From: Rhizobium sp. EC-SD404
Lineage (GTDB): Bacteria > Pseudomonadota > Alphaproteobacteria > Rhizobiales > Rhizobiaceae
Assembly: GCF_902498825.1 (NCBI RefSeq)
Contig: NZ_LR701459.1
Coordinates: 1,122,001-1,186,000, forward strand
DNA: 64,000 bases
Reading direction: 5' to 3'
Under the pieces are notes generated by a model. That model saw only the letters and a program-made list of their open reading frames with translations. It had not been told where the DNA came from and searched no databases. Every line of letters begins with the position of its first letter. Within the stretch, counting starts at the first letter, position 1. The position numbers were made by a program, and so were the translations under genes. Shown here piece after piece: positions 20,356 to 28,768 of the stretch.

Positions 20356-20742
20356 TTAATCACATTTTGCTGCGGCTGTATCTTCGATATATTCCAGTGC
20401 GGCGTTGTAAATTGGAAAAATAAATGCAGTCCGATGGAGAGTTGGTCTCCTAACGTCGCCGATGTGCCGAGGCATGGCATCAGACAGAGTCGCTTTGTAA
20501 GCGAGATATATATCAAAGCAGCCGACGGACGATTGGATATCTAAAATCCAATTGCCCGGTTCCCAGGTTTCCCCGTAAAGGATGTAGTGCATTGGTTCAT
20601 GGTAATAAAATAATATATTATTCATAGCGGCATCAATATTGTCGTGCATTGAAATGATCGTGCCATCTTTGCGCGTGACGAGGTTGGTCAATTCAGTTTC
20701 CCGAGGGATATTCATCAAATCGTGAAAATCAATTATTCTCAT
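20356..20742 (-). CDS. hypothetical protein of foreign composition
   Basis: A 128-residue protein of AT-rich codon use, unlike its neighbours. The start MRIIDFHDLM at 20742 is supported by AAGGA seven bases upstream; the frame continues further upstream, but that part is the end of an IS element. Aromatic-rich, apparently globular segments (ILFYYHEPMHYILYG, WEPGNWILDI) are present, with no recognised domain or signal peptide. It lies just beyond the right end of an IS3-type remnant, so it may have been brought in by transfer. Confidence 0.55.
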   Translation of the reverse strand: MRIIDFHDLMNIPRETELTNLVTRKDGTIISMHDNIDAAMNNILFYYHEPMHYILYGETWEPGNWILDIQSSVGCFDIYLAYKATLSDAMPRHIGDVRRPTLHRTAFIFPIYNAALEYIEDTAAAKCD

Positions 20743-20944
20743 TTTTGTTCCTTTTAGGTACTTAAGTGTGCTGATACAAAAATCATTGCTTGCGTTTTCA
20801 TCGGCTGCAACTCTTTTCTTGCAGATTTCGAAATTTATGGAACATCGACGATCACGCTTCAATGTCAGGAAAGCGCCGCGCGCGGAAATGCTGAGGCGGC
20901 CATGTGGAGTAGACCCCGTTTCACCGGACAGTCGGCGGTTGGGT

Positions 20945-21495
20945 TTAGGCACTAAGACGCAGGAACTCGCGTGGTGAGCGGAACCTGAGCCCGGAGTGCG
21001 GGTGGACTCACAGTAGTCGTCGATCCAGTCGGGCAGCAAGGCCAGGATGGTATCGGCGTCTGGGAGGATGGCGGTCGAGGCGTAGTCTCTCTTCAGTGTT
21101 TGACGAAGGCCTCGGACATGCCGCTACTCTGCGGGCTTCGAACCGGAGTGAAGAGCAGATTGATGCCGAGGGCAGCGGCGACCTGCGCGGTCTGCCTGGC
21201 AATATAGGCGCTGCCATTGTCCGAGAGCCATTCCAGTCGGTGCGGGACCTTAAGGGTCTTGAAGCGGCGTTCCACCGCGGCAAGTCACAGACCATTTCAC
21301 CACAGATGCCGGCATTGGCCACGGCTGACCAGCGATGATCTCCCGGTCGCAGGCATCGATGACGAACACAATGCGGACCACCTCGCCATTGCGGGCACGG
21401 ATCTCCAGATGATCTGAGCACCAGCGGATGTTGGAACTCAGCGCAACGACGACGCCGTCGTGGGTGTGGGTATCCGAAAGGTCGCCGCGTGCCAA
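20945..21495 (-). pseudogene. decayed IS3-family (IS2-group) transposase OrfB
   Basis: Minus-strand fragments in several frames reconstruct the C-terminal half of an IS2-group integrase: GVVVALSSNIRWCSDHLEI, FVIDACDRE (first catalytic Asp), WLSDNGSAY (second Asp), SPQSSGMSEAFVK (Glu), then RDYASTAILPDADTIL and a final HPHSGLRFRSPREF. At least three frameshifts separate these pieces, and the N-terminal part and orfA are missing. A probable element end (TGGAGTAGACCCCGTTTCAC) begins at 20905. It cannot encode active transposase. Confidence 0.8.
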
Positions 21496-21569
21496 AACCG
21501 CCTCCTAAAAAGCAGTCGTGAATCACGCGTCTGCTGATTTGGGAGTCCACTTTGTCAACAGGGCCTAGG

Positions 21570-21867
21570 TGTTTGATCCAGGAGTTTGATGGTGCAATGT
21601 TTTCGATCGATGGAAGGAGGCACTATGGACCAGGTTCATGGGAGCGCCACGACGACAGAGGCGATCCGTCGAGCGATACAGCATAGTCAAGAGAGCCTGA
21701 GGGCGCTTTCGAAGCGCTACGGCATCAACCAGAACGGTTGCGAAGTGGAAGAAGCGGACCTCGGTCGCCGACGTGCCAACTGGGCCGAAAGACCCCAAGT
21801 CAACTGTGCTGTCGATCGAAGATGAGGCGATCATCGTCGCTTCGCAAGCACACGCTGCTTCCGCTGA
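21570..21867 (+). pseudogene. IS481-family transposase, 5' fragment (copy 1)
   Basis: An ATG at 21625, preceded by AAGGAGG, opens MDQVHGSATTTEAIRRAIQH, the N-terminal helix-turn-helix of a common IS481-type transposase. Frameshifts near 21733 and 21843 interrupt the continuation (VAKWKKRTSVADVPTGPKD, then RKHTLLPL). At about 21868 the homology switches abruptly to an IS1595-type transposase. The bases before the ATG match those before the second copy at 23.53 kb, so both retain the same element end. Confidence 0.75.
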
Positions 21868-22329
21868 TCCCGAAAGCCTACACAGCGACATCAGCCCGAT
21901 TCCTCGATCGTTTCGTCTCACCGGACGCCCGCATCGTGTCAGATGCAGACCCTGCGATCCGTAAGACCGCGAAACCCTTCAAAGGCTATGCCTCAGTCGT
22001 CCATGGGGACGATGTCTTCGCCCAGGGCGACGTCCATTCAAATACGGCCGAGAGCGTGATCTCGACGCTGAATCGGGCTCAGATCGGCGTATTCCATTGG
22101 CTAAATCGGGAGCATCAGCAACGGTATCGATGAGATTGTCTTTCGCCGAAATCAGAGGGAGCTGATCGTCAGACAGCTTGGCCGCGATGAGCCTGAGTCC
22201 GTCGAACTGAGATACCGTTCGTTCACATCGCAACTGCAGGACTTAATTGCTCGCGCTCTTGGTCGGCAGGTTAGTAGGTCTAAGATTGGCGGGATGGATT
22301 GGCCGCCGCCGATCGCCTTTTTTGATTGA
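21868..22329 (+). pseudogene. IS1595-family transposase, C-terminal fragment
   Basis: It begins in frame after the IS481 piece with IPKAYTATSARFLDRFV. The conserved C-terminal half of an IS1595-type DDE transposase follows: IVSDADPAIRKTA, SVVHGDDVFAQGDVHSNTAE, and HWLNREHQQRY. A one-base shift near 22131 moves the end (DEIVFRRNQRE to a stop at about 22329) into another frame. The N-terminal half, with the first catalytic residues, is absent. Confidence 0.75.
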
Positions 22330-22376
22330 CGTCGTGAAAATTTGCGATGACCATACTGTGATGATTGAGGACAAAC

Positions 22377-23216
22377 ATGTTTCAGATCGACCAATTACCT
22401 GTTTATGGGGACGTCACACATCTCTGCAGGGTCGCGCGTGGGCATCGCGACCATCTCATAGGCGACCCTCTCCTTGCCGGGGATGACATCGAGATCAAGA
22501 TTAGCTCGGACAAAGGGCCGTATATCGACGCAAACGCTAAGTTCCTGGCTTCCGAGCACGGCAGGAAGGCTGCGACAGCGATCGCCGAGGAACACGCATT
22601 ACTGAAGAATTTGTCGGATCACATCGTGGTCCGCTCCAACGAGATCGCAGACATGCGAAAATGTTGGACCGTCTCAATTCTTGCACGCGTCTCTACGGTG
22701 TCAGGACAGATTTTTGGTCGTGAATTCGCCGACCCGACGTCTATCATTCAATCGCTGTTCTTCTCGCTGGATACAGACGAGGATCATAGGATCGTGAGAT
22801 ATCCTGTTGCGATAACCGCCTACGACCAGGCGAATTGGCTCCCTCGGTACAAACTCGATACCAGCAAGGTCGAAATCTGCGAACGGGCGGCGATTGAGGT
22901 CGCCCAGGGTTTCGCCGACACAATCCGCAGCGACGCTGGCGATCATGGGACTATATTTGACGGAATTTTGTGGTCCCTGGATTCCGGTGACGTCGTAAGT
23001 CAATGGGTTAAGATGTCGCCGCCGGTGGGCAGAAGCGGAATGCCAACGTGGCGTTCTCCGCAGCCGCTCGACGTCGATATCGCCAGTCCTGGATTGGCAT
23101 GTCAGTCCAGTGATTGGATCTTCGGAATGGAGAGACTGGCAGGTCCTGCGGACAAGCATGTGTCTGATGAAGGTGGGCGGCATTGGTCAAGTTCGCCTTT
23201 AACAACACGCCATTGA
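22377..23216 (+). CDS. hypothetical protein in the island
   Basis: A 279-residue protein starting at ATG 22377, five bases after GAGGA; an in-frame ATG at 22365 is possible. No domain, signal peptide or membrane segment is recognised. A helical middle part (about 60-130) is followed by a SIIQSLFFSLDTDEDHRIVRYPVA segment. The C-terminal ~50 residues are low in predicted structure and could be read-through of a degraded end. It is flanked on both sides by IS fragments, so it may be cargo of the accessory region or the remnant of a larger gene. Confidence 0.45.
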   Translation: MFQIDQLPVYGDVTHLCRVARGHRDHLIGDPLLAGDDIEIKISSDKGPYIDANAKFLASEHGRKAATAIAEEHALLKNLSDHIVVRSNEIADMRKCWTVSILARVSTVSGQIFGREFADPTSIIQSLFFSLDTDEDHRIVRYPVAITAYDQANWLPRYKLDTSKVEICERAAIEVAQGFADTIRSDAGDHGTIFDGILWSLDSGDVVSQWVKMSPPVGRSGMPTWRSPQPLDVDIASPGLACQSSDWIFGMERLAGPADKHVSDEGGRHWSSSPLTTRH

Positions 23217-23527
23217 ACGACTACGATTGATGACTGGCTTTCATTGATACTTCGAGCTTTCCGCGCCGTTCTGCAATCCATCTTAACTCATCGAACGAAA
23301 CAGTGCTGCAAGTTGAGCGTCGAAGCTTACCGTGGTGCCTGCAGAACGGGTCGCGCGTGCTTTTCCTCAACGTTGGCATCAGGAAATTTCCTCCCACCGT
23401 CTGCAGATGTTTCTGTTTCATATTTGCTGAGGTAGCCGGAACCAGAGTGCCAGCGCAAATGAAATGCGGAACCACGCGGCGTTATTGTCTCTGGCGGCGT
23501 ACTACACTTGAAGACTGATCCCGATGT
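23217..23527. other. 311-base stretch, no recognised gene
   Basis: Short frames exist on both strands without family resemblance or ribosome-binding sites. It separates the orphan gene from the second IS481 remnant and is probably decayed DNA. Confidence 0.4.
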
Positions 23528-23825
23528 CTGGTCCCAGGCTTTGATGGTGCTCTGTTTTCCAGACTGAGAGGGACGCACTTAGGCCAGGTTCTACGTGGCA
23601 ACGCCACGGCTTCGACAGAAGACCGTACCGAAGTGGAAGAAGCGTTGCTCAGTCGGCGATCTGCCGACCGGAACGAAGGAGGCACTATCCGCTGTCTTGT
23701 TGCCGGAGAAGCAGGCGGTCCGCGTCGCTTTCCGGAAGTACACATTGCTGCCGCTGGACAACTGCGCCTACGCGCTCCAGCCGACTATCTCGCAGCTGAC
23801 ACCTTATCTCTGCCACGCAGCCTGA
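23528..23825 (+). pseudogene. IS481-family transposase, 5' fragment (copy 2)
   Basis: A diverged second copy of the element start at 21.57 kb: the shared pre-ATG region (TTTGATGGTGC), a lost start codon, then remnants equivalent to VPKWKKRCSVGDLPTGTKE and FRKYTLLPLDNCAYALQPTI. It extends further into the transposase than copy 1 but has frameshifts, and ends near 23825 just before an IS630-type piece. Confidence 0.7.
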
Positions 23826-23861
23826 CATAGAAGGTGTCGAAGCACCCAGTGGCCGCGTTTG

Positions 23862-24006
23862 GACGTATAAAAAAGACGCACACGCACTGTAGCAGGACCG
23901 TCCCGACATCCGGAAGCGGAGGCAGGCCTGGTTCGACGGCCAGCTCGCTCTCGATCCAACAAAGCTCGTCTTCATCGACGAGACGGGATTGTCGACGAAA
24001 ATGGTC
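23862..24006 (+). pseudogene. IS630-family transposase, internal fragment
   Basis: In one frame (with one stop near 23900) the sequence reads KKTHTAL, QDRPDIRKRRQAWFDGQLAL, then KLVFIDETGLSTKM. The FIDET motif contains the second catalytic Asp region of IS630 transposases. Homology stops at about 24006, exactly where a reverse-strand PIN-toxin remnant begins. Confidence 0.7.
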
Positions 24007-24009
24007 CTG

Positions 24010-24128
24010 TCGCCCCATTCTGCTTCGATCTCAGCGTCCAATGGAGACGAACAGGTTTTCGACAGCCAACTTCATCAGGATGTTTCGCTGCTCTTGGCCA
24101 AACAGAACGTTGGCGTTGGCTAGGACAA
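24010..24128 (-). pseudogene. PIN-domain toxin remnant (VapC-like), truncated
   Basis: Just downstream of the antitoxin-like gene, the minus strand reads VVLANANVLFGQEQRNILMK and LAVENLF, the N terminus of a PIN-domain RNase toxin. A frame change then gives DAEIEAEWGD. The first catalytic Asp, normally in LDANVL, is Asn here, and the domain is cut off at the IS630 fragment. It therefore cannot be a functional nuclease. Confidence 0.6.
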
Positions 24129-24139
24129 CAGGACAAGAT

Positions 24140-24577
24140 TCAGGGCTTGTGGGGAGCTTCAAAGTCTCCAATCTCGTCAAAGTTCTGGTAAATTTCGTTC
24201 ATCAGATCGTTCTGCTCTTCCTCTTTCGCCTTCAGCGCGATCACGTCTGCCAATGTGCTGCGCCGATGGGTGCCGACGTAGTGAAAGGGAAGACGCCCAT
24301 CCTCCATTCTTCGGACGACCATCGGCCGTGACACACCGAGTATCTTGCCTGCTTGGACAGGCGTCAGTTCAGTGCCGAGCGGACCATATGCAACCCCTCC
24401 CTTCTTTAATGCAGTCGACAAAAAGCGTGAAAAGACTAATGCTAATGGCGGATCAAGCGATACGGTCAGGGCGTCGCCCTGCTGACCTTCCTGCACGGTG
24501 AGCGCAGCCAAGGCCTTTTATGCGGCCTGCTTCATTCGATCATCAAAATCCTCGAAAACGATGTGTCGATTGCTCAT
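24140..24577 (-). pseudogene. antitoxin-like helix-turn-helix protein with an internal stop codon
   Basis: From an ATG at 24577 with a strong GGAGG Shine-Dalgarno, the frame reads MSNRHIVFEDFDDRMKQAA and then meets TAA (24518-24520). It continues unbroken for 125 more codons. The C-terminal part (ELTPVQAGKILGVSRPMVVR) is an excisionase/MerR-like DNA-binding domain found in antitoxins of PIN-toxin pairs. Restart at TTG 24511 would give a 123-residue protein retaining the DNA-binding part, so residual expression is possible. The partner toxin just downstream is truncated. Confidence 0.65.
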
Positions 24578-25297: not shown

Positions 25298-27280
25298 TCA
25301 TGCTGCAGTCGCCGTCTGGGTCTCAGAGGCTTGGCCGACGTCATTCTGCTGCCCACTGACCCGTCTTTTGACCTCAGGCTCATTCATCGATCCAAAGCGG
25401 ATAAGATGGCTCGCAATTGCCTCGATCGCTTCTCTGTTGGCAGCGACTAGATCAGTTGCTTTATCGAGGCTTGATTGGAGGATGGTATCGACCCGCTTCT
25501 TCAGTGTTGGATCAGAACAACGAAGGCGGTCGAGCGCAGCCGGGTCTTGTGCGTCGTGATAGACCAGAGATGGTCCGAAACCCAAACTTGCTTCCATCAA
25601 TGTCGCGAGATCGGTGGCCATCTGCAAATCGCTGCCATGAAGTGCGCCCGCACCATCAGCGTGATCACCGAAATAAAGCGTCTCAGCTGCAATTCCCGCC
25701 ATCAGGATTGCGATTTCATCGAGGTAGTTGTCCCGTGAGCGGCGCTTCAGCGGCTGCGACTTGAGCGTCACATGGCCACCGAGCCGGGATTGATCGCGTC
25801 GGACAGTCCGGCTGATATGGACTGCTTCTACGCCACGCCCAAGCACTGACGCGACAACAGCATGTCCAGCTTCGTGAATGGCCATCACTTCGACCAGTTC
25901 ATCGGGCACGGCCACCTCCTCGGGAAGCTCTGACAAGAAGTCATCGAGCGCTACAGTCCGGCGCGCTTTCCTCGCATGTCTTCTTGCTCGTCGGCAGAGC
26001 GCTTCGATGTCAGCACCGGTCCAGCCATCAGTTGCGGCAGCGACCCTTTCAAGAATTTCAGCGTCCAATTGATCCGGCTGATGAACGCGCAAGATGGCCT
26101 GTCGAGCATCCTCATCGGGGAGTGGGATAGCGATTTGGCGATCAAGCCGCCCAGAGCGCAGAAGCGCCGGATCGATGCCATCGCTCATGTTGCAGGCACC
26201 AACGATGATGACACCTTCCCGATCATCCAAGCCGTCGATGCATTCGAGCAGCCCATTGACGACCTGAATCGAATAGCTCGCGTGCTGATCACCGAAACGG
26301 GCCCGATCGCCGATGGAATCGAATTCGTCGATGAATAGGATACTTGGCGCTTGTTTCCGGGCTTCCGCGAAGTCATGGCGCATCGCTTTGAGCAGCTCGC
26401 CCAAATGTCCGGCGGCTTGCCATCTTGCAACCGATGCCGCGATGAGTTGGGCATCACAAGTGGCTGCCAGTGCTGCTGCAAAAGTCGTTTTGCCGGTGCC
26501 GGGAGGGCCTGACAGGAGAACGCCGCGATCGACGTCAGCCCAGTCGAGCGTTCCCTCTTTCCACGCCGCAAGGTCTGCCGCCAAATCGAGCCCCCATGTT
26601 TTCGCGGGACCATAGCCAGCCAACTCTTCGAGCGTCATCGTGCGCGGCTGGCGCGAAGGCGGACGTTCGGTCGGTTGATCTTCTGCCAGATTATCTTCTG
26701 CGATCGCAGCTTCGACATCATTGATGATTTCGGTAACAGAACCACGCCTTCCGGTGGCGAGTGCAACAAGGTCCATCGGCAGCTGCGAGATGCGATCGAT
26801 TTCGGCGTTGTTTGCCGTGAGACCAAGACAAGCCTTGAGCGCTGCCCGCCAGTGCGCTGGGGTCGGCGGCTGCACCTGGAGCACCGCATCAAAGCCCAGT
26901 CGGGACTTATGTGGAATGATCTGCAAGTTGTCGGTCATCAGAATGTAGCGAGGTGTGTCGACGAGGCGCACAGGAAGTTCGCGAAACCATCTTGATGGTG
27001 TCTCCGCGTCGACGACATCGACGTCATAGTCGTAGAGGTTCTCAAGGTCGGGCTTGCACTCAAGCAGCACGCGGGTTGCTGCGTCAGTGAGCGTTCTCGG
27101 TTTGAGTGTCGGCGGCACAATCAGGATGTAGCGACCTGGTTGGCCCGAGCGGAACTCGCTCTCGTCGCGCAGAGCACGGACGATCATCGCGCGACGCAGA
27201 AACCTGGCGAGGCTCATGAAACTCTTTTGACCGGCTTGCGATGGAGAAACGCGGTGGGGGAGCATTCTGTAAGGCTTCAT
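25298..27280 (-). CDS. soluble FtsH-like AAA+ zinc metalloprotease
   Basis: A 660-residue protein. Residues 1-210 are a non-membrane N-terminal region unlike that of FtsH. Residues ~215-400 are an AAA+ module with Walker A GPPGTGKTT (258-266), Walker B SILFIDEF (313-320) and the second region of homology DPALLRSGRLDRQ (370-382) with Arg-finger residues. Residues ~460-630 form an M41-type peptidase with HEAGH (469-473) and a likely third zinc ligand, Asp551 in SDLQMATDLA. No transmembrane helix is present, so it should be a cytoplasmic unfoldase-protease. A strong GGAGG and an ATGA overlap couple it to the gene upstream. It is the last gene of a three-gene island operon and may degrade a conflict-related target; its function is unproven. 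Confidence 0.85.
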   Translation of the reverse strand: MKPYRMLPHRVSPSQAGQKSFMSLARFLRRAMIVRALRDESEFRSGQPGRYILIVPPTLKPRTLTDAATRVLLECKPDLENLYDYDVDVVDAETPSRWFRELPVRLVDTPRYILMTDNLQIIPHKSRLGFDAVLQVQPPTPAHWRAALKACLGLTANNAEIDRISQLPMDLVALATGRRGSVTEIINDVEAAIAEDNLAEDQPTERPPSRQPRTMTLEELAGYGPAKTWGLDLAADLAAWKEGTLDWADVDRGVLLSGPPGTGKTTFAAALAATCDAQLIAASVARWQAAGHLGELLKAMRHDFAEARKQAPSILFIDEFDSIGDRARFGDQHASYSIQVVNGLLECIDGLDDREGVIIVGACNMSDGIDPALLRSGRLDRQIAIPLPDEDARQAILRVHQPDQLDAEILERVAAATDGWTGADIEALCRRARRHARKARRTVALDDFLSELPEEVAVPDELVEVMAIHEAGHAVVASVLGRGVEAVHISRTVRRDQSRLGGHVTLKSQPLKRRSRDNYLDEIAILMAGIAAETLYFGDHADGAGALHGSDLQMATDLATLMEASLGFGPSLVYHDAQDPAALDRLRCSDPTLKKRVDTILQSSLDKATDLVAANREAIEAIASHLIRFGSMNEPEVKRRVSGQQNDVGQASETQTATAA

Positions 27281-27705
27281 AGTGCACCTCCGATTTCGCG
27301 TTCAGCCTTCGTCTTGAGATGGATGCGTCCATCGGAGCCTTGAATTTGTTGGAGCCCGCGACTGTGGATGTAGCCGAGAACCCGAAGTGCATTTTCATCT
27401 CCCGCCAGGCCCTGGCGGCCGAGTTCGGACAGGATCGCGCGCGGCACGCAGCCGGGATGAAACCTGCCTGCTCTGGCATGCCCCATGGCGAGACCGATCA
27501 AAGTGGTAGTGTCAGTAAGCCCATCAGTCAGGCGTGCAATTTGGTGAGCGCGCCGCGCCTGCTCACCGGTGTGGCCATCAATATCGGTGATCGGACGCTC
27601 TGACGCGGCGGATGAATGCGCCACAGATGTCGGTCCGGTCGGCGAGGTAAGGCGCGCATTGCGAATTCTTGCTGATTTCGAGGGCAGTTTGGTACGTTTT
27701 GACAT
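27277..27705 (-). CDS. small basic hypothetical protein, possible winged helix
   Basis: A 142-residue protein with a basic, disordered-looking first 45 residues. A helical domain follows, with PRAILSELGRQGLAGDENAL and VLGYIHSRGLQQIQGSDGRI, whose helix-helix-strand layout could be a winged helix. No family match is recognised. GGAG lies 8 bases before the ATG. The stop overlaps the FtsH-like start (ATGA), so the two are translationally coupled, and it could be an adaptor, substrate or DNA-binding partner of the protease. It lies 103 bases after the PD-(D/E)XK-like gene. Confidence 0.65.
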   Translation of the reverse strand: MSKRTKLPSKSARIRNARLTSPTGPTSVAHSSAASERPITDIDGHTGEQARRAHQIARLTDGLTDTTTLIGLAMGHARAGRFHPGCVPRAILSELGRQGLAGDENALRVLGYIHSRGLQQIQGSDGRIHLKTKAEREIGGAL

Positions 27706-27808
27706 GACAAAGCTCCGCTGCAGCCGCTGCTCTCTGGCGCGGCGCAGTTCTGGGAAAGATCATTGGAAGAATGAGGCGGGGGCGTAACTTACGTTCGGCT
27801 CGCGAACC

Positions 27809-28768
27809 TCAAGCGTTTGCGCTGGCTGCACGAAGCCGCGCAAGACCCACGGGCGCGATAGTCGCCCCTCGTAGGTGCGACGATATTCGTCTCGTGTCGT
27901 TGACGGCGCCATTCTCTTCTGCATCTGCCGCAGACAACGTTCCGATCGCTTCCGATGTCGATCCGCTCGCCGCTGAGGAGCTGACAAGGTTAAAGGTGCC
28001 CTCCGCCATCTCGCGCAGAAACGCATCGACTGCATCACGGTAAACCGCGCGGCACCGCTGCAAATCAGATGCCAGGCCGGGCGTACCGAGCAGCGCATCG
28101 AGATGGCAGAGACCGAAAATACCATCGCCATAAGACGCGCGACTGTCGGCAAGATCGACGATCGCAATCTCGGTGCGTGTCACCATCGTCCGTTGGTGTT
28201 CGGTGTAAAGGATCTGCGGCGCGACCAGTGCTGCAGCCAGCATTTTTGTTTTTAGGTGATTGAGCTGCCGGTTGCCGGAATAGGATGACAAGGATCGTTT
28301 GACATCGATGAGAATGGCGCGGCTCGTTTCCTTTTCGATCGCGATCAGATCTGGTCGGTAGTGTCGCGTCGCGCGTCGGTTTGGATCCACCGCCAGACTT
28401 GCGAGGTCAGCCCATTCGTTGAGCGCAAGCATACGTTCCGCGTCATCGAGCACCGGCAGCTCAATGCCTCGGTCCAGGAGCTTAAATCTCGGCTCTGTGG
28501 AGACGCGTTCACGCAACAGGTGTTCCAGCATGCGGCCTTCTGCTGCCGTGACCTGGGCGGCGGCAGCAATAAGACCAGCAGAGAGCCAGCAGGCATCGGT
28601 GCTCGCGGAATAGCAGGAGCGCAGTTGACGAACAGCTTCGTCAACAAAGAGCCGATGCTGAGGGTCGATTTTAGACGACGAGGAGGTCGGCGCTGGTCGG
28701 TGTGATTGCATATGGGGTTCGGGCGCGGCAAGGCGCACGTCATGGGAAAATGACATGATGAATTTCAT
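27809..28768 (-). CDS. PD-(D/E)XK nuclease-like protein
   Basis: A 319-residue protein of unknown family. The central part shows RPD (Pro139-Asp140), then fourteen residues later a hydrophobic strand leading into D155-V-K157 (AILIDVKRS), and after it a helix with RQLNHLKTKM. This is the spacing of a PD-(D/E)XK nuclease core, with Glu145 and Lys157 as possible helpers. Residues ~60-110 are helical, and the last ~70 are low complexity. It is the first gene of the operon with a small basic protein and the FtsH-like protease. The start codon is uncertain: ATG 28768 is used, with ATG 28756 as alternative. Nuclease activity is an inference. Confidence 0.6.
   Translation of the reverse strand: MKFIMSFSHDVRLAAPEPHMQSHRPAPTSSSSKIDPQHRLFVDEAVRQLRSCYSASTDACWLSAGLIAAAAQVTAAEGRMLEHLLRERVSTEPRFKLLDRGIELPVLDDAERMLALNEWADLASLAVDPNRRATRHYRPDLIAIEKETSRAILIDVKRSLSSYSGNRQLNHLKTKMLAAALVAPQILYTEHQRTMVTRTEIAIVDLADSRASYGDGIFGLCHLDALLGTPGLASDLQRCRAVYRDAVDAFLREMAEGTFNLVSSSAASGSTSEAIGTLSAADAEENGAVNDTRRISSHLRGATIAPVGLARLRAASANA

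Follow-up and report, generated by a model that had tools for sequence, protein, structure and literature searches.

Among the described systems closest to the operon presented here, IetAS is composed of an AAA ATPase and an S8 serine protease. IetA is reported to contain an FtsH-like domain (PMC10924106). Another study describes antiviral nuclease–protease pairs, namely HamM with protease-HamA, AVAST and caspase–nuclease systems, and a gated pro-nuclease that is activated by proteolysis in antiviral immunity (PMC12799240). Here, we analysed a window of 64,000 nucleotides from Rhizobium sp. EC-SD404 (contig NZ_LR701459.1), which contains a three-gene operon coding for a PD-(D/E)XK-fold nuclease (gene 1), a small helical protein (gene 2) and an AAA+ zinc protease (gene 3). 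From its sequence and its relatives, this is a real, conserved and mobile nuclease–protease operon. It probably represents a bacterial immune system not described before, a role in defence that we infer from its location.

The open reading frames of the window confirm the layout proposed in the initial annotation. Gene 1 (27809-28768, 319 residues) is followed by gene 2 (27277-27705, 142 residues), which lies between the nuclease and ATPase genes, and by gene 3 (25298-27280, 660 residues), all on the minus strand, as are the features of their products given below. An ATGA overlap joins genes 2 and 3. Gene 1 may start at 28756 instead of 28768: this alternative start (MSFSHDV...), with an AGGA upstream, is the one at which a relative (P0008) begins. 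The G+C content of the operon stretch is 0.52-0.59, compared with mostly 0.61-0.65 elsewhere in the window. Another copy of the trio is present in this genome (C18:3272308-3275736), adjoining an integrase and ppx/rlmE, with 71% identity to the window copy for gene 1 and 73% for gene 3. Given this second copy, the occurrence of the trio is far beyond chance.

Of 297 genomes covered by a family-wide search, 53 carry gene 1. In the genome scan, 113 stretches matched and 79 distinct loci were retained from them, mostly from rhizobia, with others from Aurantimonas, Fulvimarina, Aquamicrobium, a Devosia bin and Nitrobacter. In most relatives gene 3 is split in two: the first chain (3a) ends after the AAA large subdomain, and the second (3b) carries the AAA lid and then the M41 protease domain. 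Among the loci with 4.3 kb of downstream sequence, 3a and 3b are found directly downstream of gene 1 in 66 of 69, the exceptions being a truncated locus (L128), one with a reversed order (L132) and one with gene 1 alone (L139). The trio first noticed in the window is thus conserved together elsewhere. Gene 1 lies within 12 kb of 50 of the 59 long-ATPase places (50 of 61 if two borderline rows are counted). With three candidates scored per genome, a long-ATPase match is found within 6 kb of 50 of the 76 gene 1 places, and any listed ATPase match at 61 of the 76. The nine long-ATPase places without gene 1 are covered by eight stretches (L188-L195). Two of these (L194 and L195) lie at the start of their contigs and three (L191, L192 and L193) hold gene 2 with no match to gene 1. 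In L188 and L190, a small protein and a second AAA protein of about 512 residues accompany 3a-3b in place of gene 1; in L190 the small protein matches DUF6634 and the second protein matches AAA. A lid–M41 gene also adjoins relatives of this second AAA protein in six of 20 loci (L200, L202, L204 and L206-L208), so that the lid–protease chain recurs with other partners.

By alignment of its catalytic residues and by the modelled core, gene 1 has a PD-(D/E)XK nuclease fold. The nuclease-like RPD...DVK spacing noticed at first was borne out: E77, E82, P139-D140 (second catalytic motif, 28349-28354) and D155-x-K157 (third catalytic motif, D155-V-K157 in the window, 28298-28306) are invariant in all 43 aligned rows, window sequence included. 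One of 28 relatives in another alignment (L052) shows a D-to-E swap in the (D/E)xK motif, and the diverged gene 1 of L189 has no DxK. The predicted core, with a predicted local distance difference test score (pLDDT) above 90, has the alpha-beta-beta-beta-alpha-beta arrangement and resembles structures that we take to be nucleases of the PD-(D/E)XK class, as the initial annotation had proposed. A Pfam search with genes 1 and 2 gave nothing above the cut-off, and a gene 1 profile found no sequence match among solved structures at E <= 1. The fold and the residues point to a metal-dependent DNA nuclease activity.

A second conserved element of gene 1 lies at its C-terminus. Following a variable linker with a pLDDT below 50, the motif VGLA (residues 307-310, 27839-27850) corresponds to the consensus [VIF]G[FLIY]A, which is present within the last 25 residues in 99 of the 101 gene 1 rows longer than 290 residues. 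This motif is possibly a protease tag or a docking tail. As flexible ends are commonly engaged by AAA+ proteases, the conserved tail of the nuclease is the best mechanistic handle on the system.

Gene 3 codes for an AAA+ zinc protease that probably forms a soluble ring. Three Pfam matches, all above their cut-offs, delimit its AAA large subdomain (PF00004, 109 bits; residues 254-387, 26120-26521), its AAA lid (AAA_lid_3, PF17862, 37.8 bits; residues 410-448, 25937-26053), which most relatives encode together with the protease on another chain, and its M41 domain (PF01434, 62.4 bits; residues 464-638, 25367-25891, with HEAGH at 25862-25876). The motifs of the initial reading were all located, namely what we take to be Walker A (258-265), Walker B (314-321), the Arg-finger region (375-381), the HEAGH zinc-protease motif (469-473) and the third-ligand region (549-556). 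Of 102 rows, some of which are truncated, 88 match Walker A exactly; HE[AS]GH is present in 87 of 97 rows, and HExxH in 95 of 97 once the other ten are inspected. The two exceptions are a single locus fetched twice (L073 11197-11985 and L057 6136-6924): in this Ferirhizobium 3b, YEAGH replaces HEAGH and the zinc site is predicted to be lost, beside a full-length nuclease.

The best NCBIfam match of gene 3 is the FtsH family (203.5 bits), as would be expected of a housekeeping FtsH paralogue whose neighbours are incidental. However, this score is far under the cut-off of 600, and no membrane helix was found in the window protein by hydropathy, with a best 19-residue value of 1.54 compared with 2.25 for the genome's own FtsH. 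The latter is encoded by a separate frame elsewhere in the genome and has a hydrophobic N-terminal stretch. The conservation of the trio and the proximity of gene 1 to most long-ATPase places also speak against a stand-alone homologue, and we find a housekeeping role hardly credible. The hydropathy result holds for the window protein, since 11 of the 94 rows of the gene 3 family exceed 1.8.

Comparison of the sequences indicates that the fused gene 3 of the window is the minority form and that an AAA+ motor split between two genes, an unusual arrangement, is the rule in its relatives. The split falls inside the AAA+ module in 62 of the 67 loci with both parts, and the gene is fused in five, although distant forms are under-sampled in these counts because the patterns for the locus scan were drawn from a closer subset. 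In the pair tested with Pfam (L058), 3a has AAA and no lid, and 3b has AAA_lid_3 (29.8 bits) and M41 (47 bits). In a tree of the AAA domain (40 rows, L104 and L132 excluded), the fused proteins make up two groups nested among the split ones, one from the genus of the window and the other from the Aurantimonas loci and L048, and the fused label requires two changes. In the fused protein of L048, a long linker persists where the split would fall. It is conceivable, if doubtful, that the module represents a hitherto unseen class among ATP-dependent immune proteases: with the AAA+ motor itself divided between two chains, motor and protease could assemble only in response to a trigger and then process the nuclease through its C-terminal tag. 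The 3a chain would then bring an N-terminal part of about 400-470 residues, which may be a sensor, and the large ATPase subdomain; 3b would bring the lid and the zinc protease, and the fused forms, such as that of the window, would be variants of this machine whose two chains are locked together.

Gene 2 had been read as a possible winged-helix protein, which its structure model does not support: the model consists of four helices and no strands, albeit with low confidence (pLDDT 66.8), and a fold search with this model gave no informative match. In the relatives, a conserved core of about 60 residues is encoded at this same position, and gene 2 is detected by BLAST in 62 of the 69 loci having enough downstream sequence. 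That it serves as an adaptor is a guess.

The surroundings of the module are what link it to defence. Fifteen of 20 large proteins encoded upstream of it match PADLOC (E <= 1e-10), with at least one in each of the ten loci, which had been chosen for their large open reading frames. The systems are varied and comprise type III restriction–modification, BREX, Olokun, type IIG restriction–modification, DISARM- or Dpd-like genes and others. At E <= 1e-50, 69 proteins neighbouring the module in 35 loci matched 70 PADLOC families, compared with one family for 66 proteins from randomly chosen stretches within the same bacterial family; these figures count families and not matching proteins and, as the control is mostly chromosomal, they reveal defence-rich islands rather than an excess over other islands. 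The test sample took at most the two largest open reading frames (up to 1500 residues) from 35 of 50 de-duplicated loci, in list order up to a size limit, and left out the genes of the module itself, labelled recombinases, regulators and flank genes, whereas the control proteins, from 33 of 38 random stretches, were unfiltered. The module itself is not represented in the PADLOC library of 2023: genes 1 and 2 have no match at E <= 1, and gene 3 matches only through its AAA domain, save one match at E 0.13. We found no published description of it in the open-access literature, which leaves most subscription papers uncovered, and a description more recent than the 2023 PADLOC-DB could exist. The initial annotation, which suggested an undescribed conflict module combining a nuclease and an AAA+ protease, is therefore partly supported, through the conserved trio, the nuclease fold and the location among defence genes; the winged helix of gene 2 is the part that found no support. 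Two results go beyond it: the splitting of gene 3 in most relatives and the residence of the module in defence-rich islands with recombinases.

The reading that we favour, and whose chances we judge to be evenly balanced, is that of a mobile module borne by defence islands, in which a nuclease is gated by a dedicated ATP-dependent protease and acts in defence. Conservation of the three active sites suggests that the module makes use of its nuclease, ATPase and protease activities alike. The gene 1 nuclease would be the likely effector, and the client of the protease would most likely be the nuclease itself, or gene 2 bound to it. The protease would set the timing of nuclease activity by gripping the gene 1 product at its flexible C-terminal tail, which bears the conserved motif; upon infection, the nuclease would be freed or processed and would cut the invading DNA or all DNA. 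The gate could operate in either direction, with trimming leading to activation or degradation leading to restraint, such a degradative brake being the main alternative.

A protease that continually removes a toxic nuclease, together with gene 2, could also stabilize its carrier in the manner of a toxin–antitoxin pair, loss of the element freeing the nuclease. The single operon with the nuclease first and the protease last, the gene 1 tail, which could be a degron, and the presence of the module on mobile elements and plasmids would all suit such a role. Nevertheless, seven relatives combine a full-length nuclease with an ATPase/protease that is damaged, dead or missing, which a strict antitoxin role ought to preclude unless assembly errors or silent genes are involved; we consider this reading quite unlikely. 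Lesions are seen both ways, as nucleases without a working protease and as ATPase/protease loci without gene 1, and favour neither direction of the gate.

Mobility raises the further question of whether the module serves the element that carries it, by controlling the excision, transfer or maintenance of an integrative island in an XisH-like manner. Among 83 loci, a tyrosine integrase is found in 34, a second tyrosine integrase in six, serine recombinases in 21 and any labelled recombinase in 61. However, the carriers are unrelated, with a tyrosine integrase, tandem serine recombinases or repABC plasmids; gene 1 lies at most 12 kb from ten of the 29 strong integrase places and at most 30 kb from 13; and other cargo is carried by six integrase loci that lack gene 1, with defence-like genes (by eye) in L144 and L146. 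Control of the element thus appears unlikely. The ppx-rlmE site looks like a recurrent insertion site of integrase islands (L071, L122, L091, L043 and others), the PPX label being present in 12 of the 83 loci. A 'viral' contig from IMG/VR (L063) holds the whole module and an integrase, and has the appearance of an integrative island, not of a phage.

A gene of about 400 residues, for instance at 8605-9807 in L113, is present in 62 of the 83 loci, in 54 of which it is on the same strand and at most 1.5 kb upstream of gene 1; conversely, 37 of the 49 places of this gene are near gene 1. If its product were a regulator, which is a guess, the AAA+ protease could degrade it to turn on the genes of the island, and the nuclease could act in recombination or repair. 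Against this reading, the genome of the window has two copies of the trio and no match to the regulator-like gene, and the match of the L136 product to DUF3102 is weak (17.2 bits, below the cut-off of 24.4). We regard regulatory proteolysis as very unlikely.

Other neighbours deserve mention. In 20 of 24 cases, the gene for a DUF429-like protein (18.8 bits, below the cut-off; for example, L112 14375-15310) follows 3b at a distance of no more than 60 bases, and it may belong to the operon as an additional member. Plasmid-borne rhizobial AAA proteins that match gene 3 adjoin metallophosphoesterase genes in L041 (10142-12728) and L042 (9347-14431), and these loci are possibly another defence module; L041 also holds an S8 peptidase/ATPase pair and a KwaB-like gene. 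In the window, a small helix–turn–helix protein is encoded downstream of the operon (24140-24511), with matches to an excisionase-type domain (30 bits) and to PADLOC mad1 (28.3 bits). The stretch 20356-24500 is low in G+C and its open reading frames have no assignment; a Pfam search gave no match for those at 20356-21039 and 22365-23216, and a possible transposase remnant was seen by eye at 21738-22133.

If the favoured reading is true, an AAA+ zinc protease joins the proteases that control immune nucleases, and energy-driven proteolysis becomes an immune switch. The split module would offer a test of how an AAA+ motor functions with its subdomains on separate chains. Many rhizobia and relatives carry the module, and their phage resistance matters for inoculants; it also marks mobile islands rich in defence genes.

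Compared with known systems, gene 3 shares with FtsH the AAA and M41 domains, HEAGH and the third ligand, but it lacks a membrane helix in the window, is usually split in the AAA+ module and belongs to a nuclease operon. Gene 1 is of the same fold class as McrC, Shedu SduA, Hachiman HamA and Card1 and shares their catalytic motif, yet their partners differ and none was matched by the gene 1 profile in the structure search described above. XisH, the fdxN excision factor, is said to act beside the serine recombinase XisF. Gene 1 differs from the fdxN element excision controlling factor (2okf) in having other partners and in not being tied to one recombinase. The likeness to IetAS lies in the association of an AAA ATPase with a protease, and PADLOC IetA models match the AAA domain of gene 3 (95 bits), although gene 3 falls below the curated IetA level (96.2 bits, compared with 510 in NCBIfam). 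Here, however, the protease is of the M41 family, within or beside the ATPase, and a PD-(D/E)XK nuclease is added; a tblastn search with one S8 serine protease query (E <= 1e-5, window and 108 loci) matched only L041, the source of the query. The antiviral nuclease–protease pairs of PMC12799240 resemble our module in that a nuclease has its own dedicated protease and the two occur in a setting of defence; here, the genes are linked in 66 of 69 loci. They differ in combining a metallo-beta-lactamase nuclease with a trypsin- or caspase-like protease, where our module has a PD-(D/E)XK nuclease, an AAA+ M41 protease and a third small protein. The protease-activated pro-nuclease of that work is the closest studied logic to that proposed for the module.

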